64,000 nt of DNA, taken from positions 186,001-250,000 of the forward strand of contig NZ_GL379773.1 in the NCBI RefSeq assembly GCF_000143765.1, read 5' to 3'. How positions within the stretch are numbered: position 1 is the stretch's first letter; each line of letters begins with the position of its first letter. The position numbers were made by a program, and so were the translations under genes. Origin of the DNA: Sphingobacterium spiritivorum ATCC 33861. GTDB taxonomy: Bacteria; Bacteroidota; Bacteroidia; Sphingobacteriales; Sphingobacteriaceae. Positions 18,924 to 34,341 of this stretch are shown piece after piece. The notes under the pieces are model-generated. The model made no database searches and had not been told where the DNA came from. It saw only the letters and a list, made by a program, of their open reading frames with translations.

Positions 18924-20330
18924 TTATTTTATTCCTTTAAATATTCTGTTCCATCGTATTTTTGAAAGAAAACTACCGTCCTTATCCCAGCTCAGCCATA
19001 CAAATAGGGCTTTGCCTACAATGTGGTCTTCCGGTACAAATCCCCATCCTCTGGAGTCTTCAGAGTTGTCGCGGTTATCGCCCATCATCCAATAATAATT
19101 CATTTGGAAAGTATAGCTTGTTGCTCTAGCTCCATTGATATAAAAACCGTCCTTTTTTTCTTCCAGTGTATTTCCTTCATACACCCGGATAGCACGCTCA
19201 TAAAGGGGCATAGTCATGCTGTCAAGCTGAACCGTCCAGCCTTTTGACGGCACGACAACGGGTCCAAAGTTATCAAATGTCCAGTCCCATTTATCGATAT
19301 GCGGAAATGCTGAGTTCTGATTCTGAAACGAAATAACCTGTTCCACGTGCGCCCATTTCTTAACATCTTCTGATTCTTCCGGGGTAATATGCAGAAGATA
19401 GGGTTCTGTAAAACTGTCGGTAGCCTCATACCGTTTACGAATCAATTGCTTTTGATCCAGACCTGATCCGTCTGTAAAGACGAGATATCCGTGCTGCATA
19501 TCTTCATTCGTGAAAGCCGGCTCTCCATTAATCAACAATCTCTTGTTTTTCATTGCTACCTTATCTCCGGGCATTCCGACCAATCGTTTAATATAATTTT
19601 CTCTTTTATCTATTGGCCGGTTATAGGGGGCATCTGCTTCCATTGGATAATTAAAAACAACTACATCGTTGCGCTTGATATCCTGAAACCCGGGGAGTCG
19701 TTTATAAGGAACCTGAATCCATTCGGAATAAGCTTTGCCACCGGTTACCGGCATGGTATGGTGTGCAAAGGGAAAAGCCAAAGGAGTAATAGGAATACGG
19801 GGCCCGTAATTCAACTTGCTTACAAATAAAAAATCGCCAACTAACAGACTCCTTTCCATTGACCCGGTAGGAATCATATAGGCTTCAATCAAAAATCCCC
19901 GGATCAATGATGCCGCAATAACAGCAAATACAATAGCATCTGCCCATTCTCTTGCGAAGGATTTGGTATAGGGATATCGTTTCTTAAACTCAGCTGTATT
20001 ATATGCCCCGAGATATTTTACCTGGTCATCGTGTCCCCACACCGGCAGAATGATAAAAGGAACTAATACAACCGCTGCATGCTCCCAAAACCGCCTCTTA
20101 CCGAAAGATTTGATAAAGTCGAACCATATTCCGTAGAACACGAAGACATTAACAATAGGTACAAGGAGAAGCAAAACCGTCCATGTCGGTCTGGCGGTAC
20201 GTTGCGCCATCACATATTCTCTGTACAATGGAATAATAGCCTTCCACCCTTGTTCTCCTGCCTTTTCAAACAATCTCCATATCCCATATATTGACAGGAG
20301 AGCTGTTATTCCAAATATAATATACCACAT
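18924..20330 (-). CDS. lepB: Signal peptidase I, first of two tandem copies
   Basis: 468 residues. The N-terminal 120 residues hold several membrane helices resembling the DUF5684 module that precedes signal peptidase in Bacteroidota. The S26 catalytic domain follows. The nucleophilic serine is in MIPTGSMERSLLVGD and the general-base lysine in RENYIKRLVGMPGDKV. The box E-type motif YYWMMGDNRDNSEDSRGWGFVP is intact. Signal peptidase I cleaves signal peptides from exported proteins at the inner membrane. The gene is 21 bases downstream of a close paralogue, and both keep all catalytic residues. Confidence 0.95.
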   Translation of the reverse strand: MWYIIFGITALLSIYGIWRLFEKAGEQGWKAIIPLYREYVMAQRTARPTWTVLLLLVPIVNVFVFYGIWFDFIKSFGKRRFWEHAAVVLVPFIILPVWGHDDQVKYLGAYNTAEFKKRYPYTKSFAREWADAIVFAVIAASLIRGFLIEAYMIPTGSMERSLLVGDFLFVSKLNYGPRIPITPLAFPFAHHTMPVTGGKAYSEWIQVPYKRLPGFQDIKRNDVVVFNYPMEADAPYNRPIDKRENYIKRLVGMPGDKVAMKNKRLLINGEPAFTNEDMQHGYLVFTDGSGLDQKQLIRKRYEATDSFTEPYLLHITPEESEDVKKWAHVEQVISFQNQNSAFPHIDKWDWTFDNFGPVVVPSKGWTVQLDSMTMPLYERAIRVYEGNTLEEKKDGFYINGARATSYTFQMNYYWMMGDNRDNSEDSRGWGFVPEDHIVGKALFVWLSWDKDGSFLSKIRWNRIFKGIK

Positions 20331-20351: not shown

Positions 20352-21785
20352 TTAATCGTTTATGCTTTTAAATACTCTATTCCATCTGAAACTTGAGAAT
20401 CCTGAGCCATCTTTATCTTTGCTGTATAATACAAAAAGAGGTTTTCCTACGATATGATCCTCAGGAACTAATCCCCATACGCGGGCATCTCTGGAGTTGT
20501 GGCGGTTATCACCCATCATCCAGTAATAATTCATTTTGAAGGTATAGCTTGTTACTTTGGCTCCATTGATATAAATACCGTCCGCTTTAGTCTCCACTTC
20601 ATTTCCTTCATATACACGGATTGCACGCTCATAAAGTGGCATAGTCATGCTATCAAGCTGCACTGTCCATCCTTTTTTAGGGATTTGCAACGGTCCGAAG
20701 TTATCTACATTCCAATGGTACTTGGGATTATGCGGAAATATACCCTCTCCCTGATCTATATCGGTAGGTTTGGCAATATTAGGAATGATCTGCTTGATAT
20801 TCGGCCAGGTCTTCATATCGGCCAATTCTGCTTTAGTCAAAAACACCTGATAGGGCTCCTGACCTGCGGAATAAAACTCGATACGTTTTTCCAACATACG
20901 ATCAGGATTCAATCCTGTTCCGTCCGTAAAAACAAAATAGTCCATCATTCCTTCCGGCGGATCAAAGCCGGGTTTATTATTGACGAATAGTACAGACTCC
21001 TTAAGTGTGATAATATCACCCGGAAGTCCTACACAACGTTTGATCAGGTTTTCCCGTTTGTCGATAGGCCGGCTTAATGGCGGATCAGCTTCTTCAGGAA
21101 GATTGAATACAAATATATCATTCCGTTTGATCTCCTGTAATCCAGGTAATCGGCGGTACGGCCATTGGATTATAGTCGAATAGGCTTTTGTCCCTAAAAG
21201 CGGCATGGTATGATGTGCCAAAGGAAATGCAATAGGTGTAATAGGAAGACGAACGCCGTAGTGAAATTTACTAACAACGATACAATCTCCGGTCATTAAA
21301 CTTTTTTCCATTGATCCGGACGGGATGAAATATAATTCTATCACAAAGCTCCGGATAAAATAAGCGGCAACGATAGCAAAGACAATCGCATCTGCCCATT
21401 CTCTTCCAACAGATTTCTTGTACGGATATTTCTTTTTGAATTCTTCTGTAGCAGACAATCCCAGATATTTTACCTTCGGATCTTTGGCCCACATAGGCAA
21501 TACGATAAAAGGAACTAATATTGCCGCAGCATGTTCCCAAAATCTAAATTTACCGAAGGATTTGATAAAGTCCAGATACAGACCGTAGAAAATAAAGATA
21601 TTAACGATCGGGATCAGCAATAGAAACACCTGCCATGTTGGCTTTCCCGTTAATTGTGCGAATACATATTCCCGATAAAAAGGTACGATGGATTCCCATC
21701 CTTGTTTTCCTGCTTTGACAAAGAGCTGCCAAAGTCCGAATAATGCAACAATAGTTAATACTATAAATACAATAATACTGATCAT
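20352..21785 (-). CDS. lepB: Signal peptidase I, second tandem copy
   Basis: 477 residues, collinear with the downstream copy through the N-terminal membrane region and catalytic domain. The catalytic serine is in FIPSGSMEKSLMTGD and the lysine in RENLIKRCVGLPGDII; the MMGDNRHNSRDARVWGLVP box is complete. The two copies differ mostly in the mid-domain insert of about 80 residues between the VNNKP region and the GPLQIPKKGWTV segment, which could change substrate choice. It is 5 bases downstream of dapB in the parA-parB-DUF5683-dapB-lepB cluster. Confidence 0.95.
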   Translation of the reverse strand: MISIIVFIVLTIVALFGLWQLFVKAGKQGWESIVPFYREYVFAQLTGKPTWQVFLLLIPIVNIFIFYGLYLDFIKSFGKFRFWEHAAAILVPFIVLPMWAKDPKVKYLGLSATEEFKKKYPYKKSVGREWADAIVFAIVAAYFIRSFVIELYFIPSGSMEKSLMTGDCIVVSKFHYGVRLPITPIAFPLAHHTMPLLGTKAYSTIIQWPYRRLPGLQEIKRNDIFVFNLPEEADPPLSRPIDKRENLIKRCVGLPGDIITLKESVLFVNNKPGFDPPEGMMDYFVFTDGTGLNPDRMLEKRIEFYSAGQEPYQVFLTKAELADMKTWPNIKQIIPNIAKPTDIDQGEGIFPHNPKYHWNVDNFGPLQIPKKGWTVQLDSMTMPLYERAIRVYEGNEVETKADGIYINGAKVTSYTFKMNYYWMMGDNRHNSRDARVWGLVPEDHIVGKPLFVLYSKDKDGSGFSSFRWNRVFKSIND

Positions 21786-32790: not shown

Positions 32791-33189
32791 ATGCGCACAG
32801 GAGTATTAATAACATTTATAGCCATCATTTTTACATCTTCTATGGTAAGTTGCTCTACAACAGTAAAGCTAGGTCTATCGGGAAAGTATAATATTAAACA
32901 TGTTCAAAGCGAAGAAATTGGGAAGAACAAAGTAGCGATTGCAATCAATCTCTTTGATATCAAAACCAAAGATAAGATTGCTATTGCGGATGTAAAAAAT
33001 CTACCGGGAATTGTTATAGATAGCTCCAGCAACTACAAATTGCTTCTATTCGACCGCGATTCATTACCTCGAAGTATAAGAATCAATAAAAAGGGAAGAA
33101 TGCCTTTGCCACTTCATCCTGAGAAAAGCAAAAAGAACCTCCTTATAATTAAAGTATATCTAAGTGAAGATATCAGAGGTGTTATCTGA
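32791..33189 (+). CDS. Hypothetical small lipoprotein
   Basis: 132 residues with a lipoprotein-type signal peptide (IFTSSMVSCSTT). The rest is basic and shows predicted beta strands (KVAIAINLFDIKTKDKIAIADV, KLLLFDRDSLPRSIRI). I do not recognise the family. Its 3' end overlaps, on the opposite strand, the read-through tail of the degenerate GIY-YIG gene. Confidence 0.62.
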   Translation: MRTGVLITFIAIIFTSSMVSCSTTVKLGLSGKYNIKHVQSEEIGKNKVAIAINLFDIKTKDKIAIADVKNLPGIVIDSSSNYKLLLFDRDSLPRSIRINKKGRMPLPLHPEKSKKNLLIIKVYLSEDIRGVI

Positions 33190-33567
33190 TACCTGAGGAA
33201 TATACAAAACATAATTAAGTGATAACAAAAAAAGCATCCTCGCGGATGCTTTGGTGGAGGCTACTGGAATTCGAACCAGTGACCCTTCCGATTTTATCGG
33301 AATGATCTGAACCAGCTCGTCTGATTTGTTAATAAGTTCCTCTATTTTTAAACGGCTTTTCCAGGATTTAAGCTGACGTTCACGAATTAATGCTTCATTC
33401 TTCGTTTCATAACACTCCTGATAGACAATACACCAATCCATGAATTTTCCGGTAAAACCCTTTTTATAATGCGAATTATGCCTACGCAAACAACCTTCAA
33501 GATCATGCGTCACACCAATATAATAACGGTCTGCTTGGACTGAATATAGGATGTATAGGAAATACAT
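33160..33567 (-). CDS. GIY-YIG endonuclease, degenerate copy reading into tRNA-derived sequence
   Basis: The first 83 residues are nearly identical to the copy at 33670-33921. The Arg of the GRLRRHN motif, equivalent to the catalytic Arg27 of I-TevI, is Cys here (GCLRRHN), so activity is doubtful. The stop codon used by the sister copy (TAG) has become GAG-phase coding sequence (GACGAGCTGG against GACTAGCTGG). Translation would therefore run on through a tRNA-Val 3' fragment, its terminator and into the opposite-strand lipoprotein gene, adding about 50 residues (SLVRIPVAST is T-arm sequence). This looks like a decaying duplicate. Confidence 0.72.
   Translation of the reverse strand: MYFLYILYSVQADRYYIGVTHDLEGCLRRHNSHYKKGFTGKFMDWCIVYQECYETKNEALIRERQLKSWKSRLKIEELINKSDELVQIIPIKSEGSLVRIPVASTKASARMLFLLSLNYVLYIPQVSDNTSDIFT
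33227..33252 (-). terminator. Terminator after the distal tRNA-derived fragment
   Basis: A 9-bp stem, AAAGCATCC with GGATGCTTT, and seven T on the minus strand follow directly after the CCA of the tRNA-derived fragment. Near-copies lie at 33582-33607 and 33937-33961. Confidence 0.82.
33252..33317 (-). pseudogene. tRNA-Val-derived 3' fragment A
   Basis: On the minus strand this segment follows the intact tRNA-Val gene at 33964-34038 from the D-loop (AGCTGGTTCAGA) through the T-arm to the acceptor 3' strand and encoded CCA. It lacks the acceptor 5' strand and D-stem 5' strand. The anticodon arm is replaced by a TTCCG/CGGAA stem with an A/T-only loop. One base is inserted beside the T-loop relative to fragment B. 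It cannot fold as a complete tRNA. Confidence 0.8.
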
Positions 33568-33581
33568 AATCAGGCGATAAC

Positions 33582-33607
33582 AAAAAAAGCACCCTATCGG
33601 ATGCTTT
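33582..33607 (-). terminator. Terminator between the two GIY-YIG units
   Basis: A 9-bp stem with one G-U pair and a run of seven T on the minus strand, directly after the CCA of tRNA-derived fragment B. Confidence 0.78.
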
Positions 33608-33671
33608 GGTGGAGGCTACTGGATTCGAACCAGTGACCCTTCCGATTTTATCGGAATGATCTGAACCAGCT
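33607..33671 (-). pseudogene. tRNA-Val-derived 3' fragment B
   Basis: The same structure as fragment A without the T-loop insertion. It runs from the D-loop AGCTGGTTCAGA, through the altered TTCCG/CGGAA anticodon arm and an intact T-arm, to the acceptor 3' strand and CCA. The TAG stop codon of the GIY-YIG gene overlaps its first bases, so gene and tRNA fragment are fused at the D-loop. Confidence 0.82.
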
Positions 33672-33921
33672 AGTCTGATTTGTTAATAAGCTCCTCTATT
33701 TTTAAACGGCTTTTCCAGGATTTAAGCTGGCGTTCACGAATTAATGCTTCATTCTTCGTTTCATAACACTCCTGATAGACAATACACCAATCCATGAATT
33801 TTCCGGTAAAACCCTTTTTATAATGCGAATTATGCCGACGCAAACGACCTTCAGGATCATGCGTCACACCAATATAATAACGGTCTGCTTGGACTGAATA
33901 TAGAATGTATAGGAAATACAT
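33670..33921 (-). CDS. GIY-YIG endonuclease, intact copy
   Basis: 83 residues, a single GIY-YIG nuclease domain of the small UvrC-N/YhbQ type. The motif elements are FLYILYS (GIY position), YYIGVTHDPEG (YIG position), the catalytic arginine in GRLRRHN, and the C-terminal glutamate helix TKNEALIRERQLKSWKSR. Such domains nick or cut DNA; homing endonucleases use them for transposition. No DNA-recognition domain is attached. The gene starts 16 bases after the terminator of an intact tRNA-Val gene and ends in the D-loop of a tRNA-Val fragment. Confidence 0.85.
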   Translation of the reverse strand: MYFLYILYSVQADRYYIGVTHDPEGRLRRHNSHYKKGFTGKFMDWCIVYQECYETKNEALIRERQLKSWKSRLKIEELINKSD

Positions 33922-33936
33922 AATCAGGTAATAACA

Positions 33937-33961
33937 AGAAAAGCATCCGCGAGGATGCTTT
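33937..33961 (-). terminator. Terminator of the tRNA-Val operon
   Basis: A perfect stem, AAAGCATCC with GGATGCTTT, with a GCGA-type loop, directly after the encoded CCA of the promoter-distal intact tRNA. The T-run is interrupted by one C. Confidence 0.75.
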
Positions 33962-34038
33962 GGTGGAGGCTACTGGATTCGAACCAGTGACCCTCTGCTT
34001 GTAAGGCAGATGCTCTGAACCAGCTGAGCTAAGCCTCC
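33961..34038 (-). tRNA. tRNA-Val (anticodon UAC), CCA encoded
   Basis: The 75-base body folds into a full cloverleaf: acceptor GGAGGCT with AGCCTCC, D-stem GCTC/GAGC, anticodon stem TCTGC/GCAGA with loop CTTACAA (anticodon TAC), and T-arm CTGG-TTCGAAT-CCAG. The discriminator is A and CCA is encoded at 33961-33963. Confidence 0.96.
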
Positions 34039-34052
34039 TTTTTACTTTAGTG

Positions 34053-34127
34053 TGGAGAATACTGGATTCGAACCAGTGACCCTCTGCTTGTAAGGCAGAT
34101 GCTCTGAACCAGCTGAGCTAATTCTCC
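34053..34127 (-). tRNA. tRNA-Val (anticodon UAC), CCA not encoded
   Basis: Identical to the neighbouring tRNA-Val except for the acceptor stem, which is GGAGAAT with ATTCTCC. The D-, anticodon (TAC) and T-arms are complete. The three bases after the discriminator A do not read CCA, so the end would be added enzymatically. It lies 14 bases upstream of the other copy in the same operon. Confidence 0.94.
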
Positions 34128-34147
34128 TTATATTTTTAACGGATTTT

Positions 34148-34341
34148 AAACCGCCTACTCCTTGCTGACCAGTGACTCTTCCGATTTGTATCGGAATGCT
34201 CTGAACCAGCTGAGCTAATTCTCCTTGTATTTTTAACGGATTTTATACCGCCTACTCCTTGCTGACCAGTGACTCTTCCGATTTGTATCGGAATGCTCTG
34301 AACCAGCTGAGCTAATTCTCCTTGTATTTTTTACAGATTTT
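34148..34341 (-). repeat. Two tandem 97-bp units of 5' tRNA-Val remnants
   Basis: Remnants at 34167-34224 and 34264-34321 each keep the acceptor 5' strand GGAGAAT, the D-arm GCTCAGCTGGTTCAGAGC and the start of the T-arm (GTCACTGGT). The anticodon stem is rebuilt as TTCCGAT/ATCGGAA. After GTCACTGGT the sequence diverges, so the T-loop and acceptor 3' strand are missing. The units differ at one spacer base. They lie between the probable promoter and the intact tRNAs, so they should be co-transcribed. Confidence 0.82.

Follow-up and report, generated by a model that had tools for sequence, protein, structure and literature searches.

The stretch of DNA analysed here, a 64,000-nucleotide window of Sphingobacterium spiritivorum ATCC 33861 (contig NZ_GL379773.1, positions 186,001 to 250,000), carries a cluster of tRNA-Val genes and, behind it, a tandem array of small GIY-YIG nuclease genes. 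Read along the minus strand, two pseudo-tRNA-Val copies precede two intact tRNA-Val(UAC) genes and a terminator, and these are followed by two 354-bp GIY-YIG units, each of which runs from the nuclease gene into a 3' part of tRNA-Val and on to a copy of the terminator. The features are as follows.

34266..34322, minus strand: pseudo-tRNA-Val, outer copy, with the tRNA 5' part, a hairpin (34276-34293) and a decayed T-arm side (from the sequence; 97-bp repeat)
34169..34225, minus strand: pseudo-tRNA-Val, inner copy, with a hairpin at 34179-34196 (from the sequence; 97-bp repeat)
34052..34127, minus strand: intact tRNA-Val(UAC), first gene (ARAGORN; Rfam, 74.8 bits)
33961..34038, minus strand: intact tRNA-Val(UAC), second gene, source of the copied 3' part and terminator (ARAGORN; Rfam, 74.2 bits; blastn copies)
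33940..33961, minus strand: terminator-like stem 3' of the intact tRNA (stem search)
33670..33921, minus strand: unit 1 GIY-YIG gene, 83 amino acids (open frame; Pfam PF01541, 3.4e-15)
33607..33672, minus strand: tRNA-Val part of unit 1, D-arm through CCA, with a hairpin (33640-33656) replacing the anticodon arm (sequence and blastn; Rfam, 24.4 bits)
33586..33607, minus strand: unit 1 terminator copy (stem search)
33313..33567, minus strand: unit 2 GIY-YIG gene, whose frame continues to 33160 for 135 amino acids (open frame; Pfam, 7.4e-13)
33252..33318, minus strand: unit 2 tRNA-Val part to CCA, with a hairpin at 33286-33302 (sequence and blastn)
33231..33252, minus strand: unit 2 terminator copy and end of the array (stem search)

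An initial annotation of this DNA had described two intact tRNA-Val(UAC) genes, two 354-bp tandem units each with a GIY-YIG gene, and a tRNA 3' end with terminator occurring three times, and all of this holds. Both tRNA genes were recovered by ARAGORN and Rfam, the direct repeats lie 354 bp apart with 98% identity over 300 nt (96% over the full unit), and both genes match Pfam. The tRNA-Val sequence from position 45 to the 3' end, together with the terminator, is copied 3' of each GIY-YIG gene (blastn, E 6e-27 and 3e-25), and three terminator-like stems were found in the region where shuffled sequence gave a mean of 0.8.

The same annotation had taken the ends of the units for tRNA-Val 3' fragments. 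The fragment and the terminator are real, but it had overlooked that a perfect hairpin, TTCCGATAAAATCGGAA, takes the place of the anticodon arm in the tRNA part of both units. The corresponding pattern, TTCCGATNNNATCGGAA, has two exact matches in the window, one in each unit, and a third with two mismatches, against 0.3 matches expected at up to two mismatches. The unit 1 tRNA part scores below the Rfam gathering score of 29 bits as a tRNA. The two pseudo-tRNA-Val copies, spaced 97 bp apart just 5' of the intact genes, both carry the hairpin TTCCGATACAAATCGGAA, and their tRNA nucleotides 1-29 match the intact gene exactly.

The open frame of unit 2 runs through its tRNA part and is longer than that of unit 1. 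Frames that stay open into the tRNA part (33160-33567 in the window, and many other loci) have a protein tail translated from tRNA sequence, and databases will store such tails as protein. Elsewhere in the window, 18976-19245 and 20407-20676 form direct repeats of 270 nt with 80% identity, 1431 bp apart and unrelated to the GIY-YIG units.

The nuclease and its tRNA-linked units in relatives

The nuclease consists of a single domain, encoded by 80-85 codons across relatives. The two window proteins score 56.5 and 49 bits against PF01541 (curated cut-off, 22.6), and in the 83-residue protein of unit 1 the GIY-YIG domain spans residues 1-72, with no other Pfam domain. Residues of catalytic type are kept almost throughout the alignment, namely Y5 in 121 of 122 rows, R26 in 122 of 123, and Y16, H30 and E63 in 123 of 123, compared with a median column conservation of 53%; we take these five residues to correspond to the catalytic residues of I-TevI. 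The ratio of nonsynonymous to synonymous substitution rates (dN/dS) was 0.09-0.27 in nine of 15 pairs, those with dS below 1, and 0.07 in one pair at dS 2.6, the remaining five being saturated; by these ratios, the GIY-YIG genes are under purifying selection. The nearest relatives of solved structure (1zg2, 1ywl and 7wme) are UPF0213 proteins (E 1.3e-10 and 4.8e-8) and SLX1 (E 1.1e-5). For the two proteins scanned, NCBIfam gave no match and the PADLOC defence models none up to E 0.1, and against PHROGs the window protein had a single weak match, to a homing endonuclease (8e-4).

Within the genus, 35 of 93 genomes match the window protein, whose closest database protein, 95% identical, is named as Sphingobacterium spiritivorum. 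Of these 93 genomes, 91 have a match to the gene that precedes the tRNA cluster, and 30 stretches fetched around it were used to compare the same site. GIY-YIG hits lay beside this gene in three of them (G001, G060 and G090, the last with the gene reversed and at a contig end); 18 stretches lacked any GIY-YIG hit and had a tRNA-Val(UAC) pair or triplet immediately behind the gene; and in nine the tRNA-Val(UAC) genes were not in that position. At this site G001, the genome nearest to the window, has one unit, the window two, and G060 three and a partial one. Behind the terminator, G054 and G055 have unrelated sequence. In G053, one of the 18, and in Sphingobacterium faecium, only a truncated gene start is kept behind the terminator, which reads as a scar. 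Because unit number varies from zero to more than three at one site and empty sites exist, this is not a locus with exactly two units fixed in every relative. G001 has a second site at which a tRNA-Met is followed by six units of 363-364 bp, 99-100% identical, with a different GIY-YIG gene; each ends in the hairpin TCCGCCAGCTGGCGGA, followed by the tRNA-Met T-arm, the acceptor end and the terminator.

Many other GIY-YIG frames ending in tRNA 3' parts were found across the family and phylum. The family and phylum sets were collected with a profile (A1) built from 14 tRNA-linked proteins and hence comprise their relatives rather than GIY-YIG proteins at large. The profile matched 185 of 301 family genomes at 1e-10 and, at 1e-12, 197 of 345 phylum genomes (108 of 154 genera) and 4134 protein clusters. 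Named carriers include Sphingobacterium, Pedobacter, Fluviicola, a Saprospiraceae bacterium and Christiangramia. Among the best 120 of the 4134 clusters, few of which are named, one Calditrichaeota and one KSB1 metagenome bin appear besides Bacteroidota. Evenly spaced copies number up to seven in a fetched array (L146, G195) and eight in G378, the latter counted from profile matches only. Draft contigs that end inside or beside arrays were seen repeatedly (L019, L020, L021, L025, L044, L045, L048, L155 and others), so draft genomes probably undercount units.

The architecture was scored in 60 family loci (L137-L196), 17 best-scoring family loci and 29 best-scoring phylum loci. The 60-locus set takes the first match per genome, among the matches listed, in genomes without an earlier locus, with G225 left out. 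An upstream tRNA on the same strand lay within the stretch in 48/60, 13/17 and 26/29 loci, and a remnant of it was detectable 3' of the GIY-YIG gene in 37/48, 12/13 and 23/26 of these, as opposed to 0/240, 0/65 and 0/130 trials on shuffled sequence (0/435 in total). One locus, L146, was missed in the first remnant test by the distance limit and passed in the hairpin test described below. In the 89 loci of the 60-locus and phylum sets, all 120 tRNA calls were on the GIY-YIG strand, and in 58 of the 89 the first GIY-YIG gene starts less than 100 nt from the tRNA; in most loci with a near tRNA the gene lies 35-70 nt 3' of it. The associated tRNAs are Val, Met, Asn, Asp, Ala, Ile and Arg, and the units are often tandem.

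Two further arrangements were observed. In L061 (G034, 2033-2727), the hairpin CCTGCCTGCCGGCAGGCAGG lies in a piece resembling tRNA-Arg(CCU), and the GIY-YIG genes alternate with pseudo-tRNAs 5', not 3', of the intact tRNA. In addition, 18 loci of the genus (L029-L033, L035-L038, L040, L041, L047, L051, L054-L058) hold a different GIY-YIG subfamily, mostly of the YILTNxNRTVLYIGVT type, and no tRNA was called in these stretches. Inspection by eye shows other imperfect palindromic repeats in the flanks, for example CTGAGCGTAGTCGAAGG or TTCCGTCGGAATGACA, and these loci may represent a further pairing of nuclease and palindrome.

Hairpins that follow the nuclease clade

A perfect hairpin of at least six pairs between the gene end and the tRNA 3' end was present in 34/38 and 23/23 remnant loci, where shuffled sequence gave 4.3 and 2.9, and intact tRNAs passed the same test in 4 and 1. 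Plain tRNA 3' fragments can be ruled out because this hairpin intervenes (57 of 61 remnant loci, compared with 7.2 expected) and substitutes for a tRNA arm. Among 124 loci, hairpin picking gave 59 of class V, 35 of class M, 15 of other kinds and 15 without a hairpin; several of the 15 others are the terminator stem, which is longer. Class V 5' arms are mostly TCCCGAY, with TTCCGAY, CCCCGAA and others, and class M 5' arms are TCCGCC in 29 of 35 loci and otherwise TCCGTT, TCCGCT or TCCGTC. Loops span 0-7 nt, and the stems differ between loci yet stay perfectly paired, in hairpins that were selected for pairing.

The class of the hairpin follows the nuclease. In a protein tree of 123 rows (one of the 124 was lost, and 30 of the 123 have no hairpin class), a single branch (support 100/97) separates the 59 V rows from the 34 M rows, while shuffled hairpin labels need 28 changes. 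With few columns and many weakly supported forks in the tree, only the V/M branch is relied on here. One V-hairpin locus, L196, has an M-clade protein as its best BLAST hit, yet it falls among the V rows of the tree. For the 78 loci with both labels, hairpin class needs one change and tRNA isotype six. Class V loci are found at Val (35), Asn (4), Ala (4), Asp (2), Arg (2) and Ile (1), and class M loci at Met (28) and Asn (2), with the hairpin in the T-arm rather than the anticodon arm at Asp and at class M Asn. Odd ARAGORN calls beside GIY-YIG genes, such as Leu(taa), Phe(aaa), Stop(tta) and Lys(ttt), are presumably miscalled hairpin pseudo-tRNA-Val copies, and for this reason the Lys loci L200 and L208 were excluded from the isotype count.

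The tRNA part, in contrast, follows the site. Among 49 Val and Met loci, its last 24 nt equal the local tRNA exactly in 40, and in 48 the local tRNA is a better match than every differing tRNA of that isotype set. As the hairpin class follows the clade while the tRNA part matches the local tRNA, the nuclease gene and the hairpin appear to be one unit, and the tRNA part to belong to the site. We infer that each nuclease recognizes its own hairpin. Neither the hairpin, the part that stays with the nuclease clade, nor the nuclease-free hairpin pseudo-tRNAs had entered the initial reading of the locus.

Proposed mechanism and alternatives

With a probability of about one half, we interpret the units as a minimal selfish nuclease-hairpin cassette, mobile or self-amplifying, that lives on tRNA genes. 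Such a reading draws, from sequence comparison throughout, on the architecture, its recurrence, the changing number of units, including empty and scarred sites, the local tRNA part, the coupling of hairpin to clade and purifying selection; cleavage and its target, the copying of palindromes and amplification driven by the nuclease we infer. The portable core would be the one-domain GIY-YIG nuclease of about 80 amino acids and a palindrome particular to its clade. This core sits behind an intact tRNA and its terminator and in front of a dead second copy of the tRNA 3' part, in which the palindrome replaces one natural arm, mostly the anticodon arm and in some tRNAs the T-arm. The nuclease could cut a hairpin-like structure in tRNA genes, and hairpin or cruciform DNA is proposed as its substrate because the hairpin replaces a tRNA arm and the relatives of the nuclease include the structure-specific nuclease SLX1. 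Repair could then copy the palindrome, or the nuclease-palindrome core, into the cut tRNA gene. Breaks would also promote recombination among the repeated copies of tRNA 3' end and terminator, by which arrays could grow and shrink, while the intact front tRNA would be retained because the host needs it. Hairpin pseudo-tRNAs that lack a nuclease gene would be non-autonomous products.

A mobile or self-amplifying element had been proposed for this locus from the outset, and that part of the proposal is borne out insofar as unit number varies, empty sites exist, and the tRNA 3' end and terminator are local. In 19 arrays, units share 69-100% identity with one another. The right ends of the arrays are irregular: relative to the gene start, the repeat stops anywhere between 82 nt ahead of it and 222 nt behind it (62 loci, in which some zero values may come from a decayed copy and not mark a true end). 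They favour recombination between copies over insertion of an integrase-like kind with fixed ends, which they do not support. Recombination between repeats with truncation appears to fit the ends better than site-specific insertion does.

Several observations weigh against the cassette interpretation. Besides the irregular ends, no insertion event with defined ends was seen among the arrays. The tRNA parts would also come to agree closely with the local tRNA if gene conversion followed duplication, and plain linked inheritance would suffice to explain why hairpin and clade go together. Of the 60 loci in the first set, 12 have no upstream tRNA in the stretch, including contig ends (L155, L180, L194) and others (L170, L187, L190), and 11 of the other 48 have no detectable remnant (L140, L169, L173, L177 and L189 are among the loci with a tRNA and no remnant). 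Finally, the excess of palindromes in genomes with a GIY-YIG relative is gone overall once two palindromes per GIY-YIG copy are subtracted (p 0.11).

The alternative that survives best, although we consider it unlikely, is passive duplication, in which a host gene of UPF0213/SLX1 type came to lie behind tRNA genes and was multiplied by unequal crossing over between tRNA and terminator repeats, the nuclease taking no part. Irregular array ends suit this explanation, as do units that are near-identical in the manner expected after unequal exchange, the kinship of the domain with UPF0213 proteins, and the existence of tandem tRNA genes and pseudo-tRNAs without a GIY-YIG gene. It leaves unexplained why one nuclease lineage stands behind several isotypes with a palindrome of its own, why every tRNA call in the 89 loci is on the GIY-YIG strand, and why a palindrome takes the place of a tRNA arm.

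The palindromes are not confined to the units. Across 301 genomes, the V palindrome has 2861 forward matches, compared with 80 for the reversed pattern, and it is commoner in genomes with a GIY-YIG relative (p 3e-13; in genus g14, a median of 25 versus 3, p 5e-6), the uncorrected excess being not significant in genera g15, g21 and g4. Such numbers, together with palindromes outside tRNAs, could mean that the genome-scattered palindrome is the main product of the enzyme, in the manner of a REPtron, and that the tRNA units simply keep the enzyme gene. We regard this as quite improbable. Of three genera, the corrected excess is kept in g14 (p 0.0014) and gone in g1 (p 0.77) and g15 (p 0.92), and some genomes without a GIY-YIG match at 1e-10 carry at least 20 palindromes. 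Palindrome scattering as a general effect, supported after correction in g14 only, is kept as an alternative, and because the corrected excess is gone overall we claim no general role of the nuclease in palindrome spread.

Stretches around palindromes outside the units were varied in kind. Twenty of them comprised five hairpin pseudo-tRNAs without a GIY-YIG hit and 15 that were unlike tRNA by eye. Hairpin pseudo-tRNAs free of GIY-YIG genes, of Asp and Met type and several of them tandem, were seen at L062, L063, L065 (G043), L068 (G091) and L064 (G060). M-class palindromes of the form TCCGCCARYTGGCGGA lie between genes at L067, L069-L074, L077 and others (G043, G091), and copies in these two genomes share AT-rich flanks, ATTATTTCATGA before and TCGGTTTG behind the palindrome, so as to resemble a small interspersed repeat. 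The V palindrome reaches 96 copies in G326, mostly exact TCCCGATAGCTATCGGGA, and 86 in G233. In 16 stretches seen from these two palindrome-rich genomes (L226-L241), the palindromes stand in varied surroundings, some within simple repeats, and none was called as a tRNA.

The least probable of the three alternatives is a system that acts on RNA, in which the protein would bind or cut an RNA hairpin, with its target the tRNA or its own transcript, and the pseudo-tRNAs would serve as decoys, autoregulatory sites or antitoxin-like RNAs. The varying yet perfectly paired stems would suit it, though weakly, as the hairpins were selected for pairing, and so would the short distance between tRNA and gene, which makes read-through from the tRNA promoter possible. 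Against it, the units have no tRNA 5' part and the best of them scores below the Rfam tRNA threshold, the two proteins scanned have no PADLOC match, and copy number varies and drops to zero, with nothing obvious added by tandem copies. An origin from phages or plasmids is rejected, as no relative of the window protein was confirmed in viral contigs or the phage collection, the plasmid search gave only seven records at 35.6-37% identity (some of them chromosome-sized), and the annotated rows among the matches listed for the 443 phage records of a DNA search were tRNA genes.

Comparison with known systems

Free-standing endonucleases of the SegB kind usually, if not by strict definition, carry a second, DNA-binding domain, and integrative elements are known to insert at tRNA 3' ends, the insert being bounded on its far side by a duplicate of the 3' part. 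The nearest experimental analogue of the cassette proposed here is SegB itself. SegB is a free-standing GIY-YIG homing endonuclease of phage T6 that cuts inside tRNA genes, and its tandem amplification requires its nuclease activity and phage recombination genes (PMC13096335). Its 718-bp repeat consists of tRNA-Tyr and a 3'-truncated segB gene, and the 5' end of the tRNA shares microhomology with the 3' end of segB (PMC13096335). SegB and the units share a GIY-YIG nuclease beside a tRNA gene, a tandem tRNA-nuclease unit, the involvement of many isotypes, and a nuclease gene whose 3' end is joined to a tRNA gene (PMC13096335). The SegB cut motif given there, RAWTSGAAC, fits GATTCGAAC, the reverse complement of the tRNA T-arm, which is also present in the tRNA-Val of the window. 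As with SegB, the gene adjoins a tRNA, occupied and empty alleles exist, and the tRNA gene is the presumed target. The units look like chromosomal counterparts of the SegB repeats with a hairpin added. SegB, however, is borne by a phage and amplifies a functional tRNA under selection (PMC13096335), whereas the units here are chromosomal, with dead tRNA copies that carry a clade-specific hairpin; they encode a lone 83-residue domain, a putative tRNA-gene nuclease without a second Pfam domain.

REPtrons (TnpAREP/RAYT with REP) likewise match a palindrome to an enzyme lineage and have it away from the enzyme gene too (PMC8266576). They differ in their enzyme, a HuH tyrosine transposase, while the units encode a GIY-YIG protein only. 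Moreover, the palindrome here is set into tRNA copies beside the enzyme gene, and its corrected abundance tracks the enzyme in g14 only. Integrative elements at tRNA genes resemble the arrays in that the intact tRNA keeps its 3' end and a second copy of the 3' part stands at the far end, but in the 354-bp unit only the GIY-YIG frame matches a family and no integrase is present, the array ends are irregular, and the second tRNA copy carries a hairpin. The UPF0213 and SLX1 proteins are the nearest solved relatives by sequence, and we know of no report of them in tRNA-linked tandem units with hairpins.

The units are not classed with SegB-type endonucleases, REPtrons or tRNA integrative elements because, respectively, there is no second domain, the enzyme is another one, and there is neither an integrase nor a fixed end. 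The cassette would work most like a free-standing homing endonuclease with an enzyme-palindrome pairing of the REPtron type, and there is a fair chance that it merits a separate class. No described system with this layout had been known to the initial annotation, and no description of it was found among the open-licence PMC papers searched. In a wider and more tentative version of this interpretation, there could be a phylum-wide class of mobile elements, each a lone GIY-YIG domain with its cognate hairpin, that recognize hairpin structure, swap a palindrome for a tRNA arm, turn spare tRNAs into pseudo-tRNAs, move from isotype to isotype with their palindrome and amplify themselves in tandem behind an indispensable tRNA, as the GIY-YIG counterpart of REPtrons.

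In summary, if the cassette interpretation is correct, a whole bacterial phylum harbours a selfish element of only about 360 bp that databases list as an ordinary GIY-YIG nuclease family protein and as false tRNAs. It would join nuclease-driven amplification at tRNA genes, enzyme-matched palindromes and the use of tRNA genes as homes for mobile DNA in a single system, and the 4134 protein clusters that match the profile would offer a large natural set of nuclease-hairpin pairs for studies of recognition. It would also explain pseudo-tRNA arrays and make it possible to examine how an essential tRNA is maintained in a host next to a nuclease that may target it.

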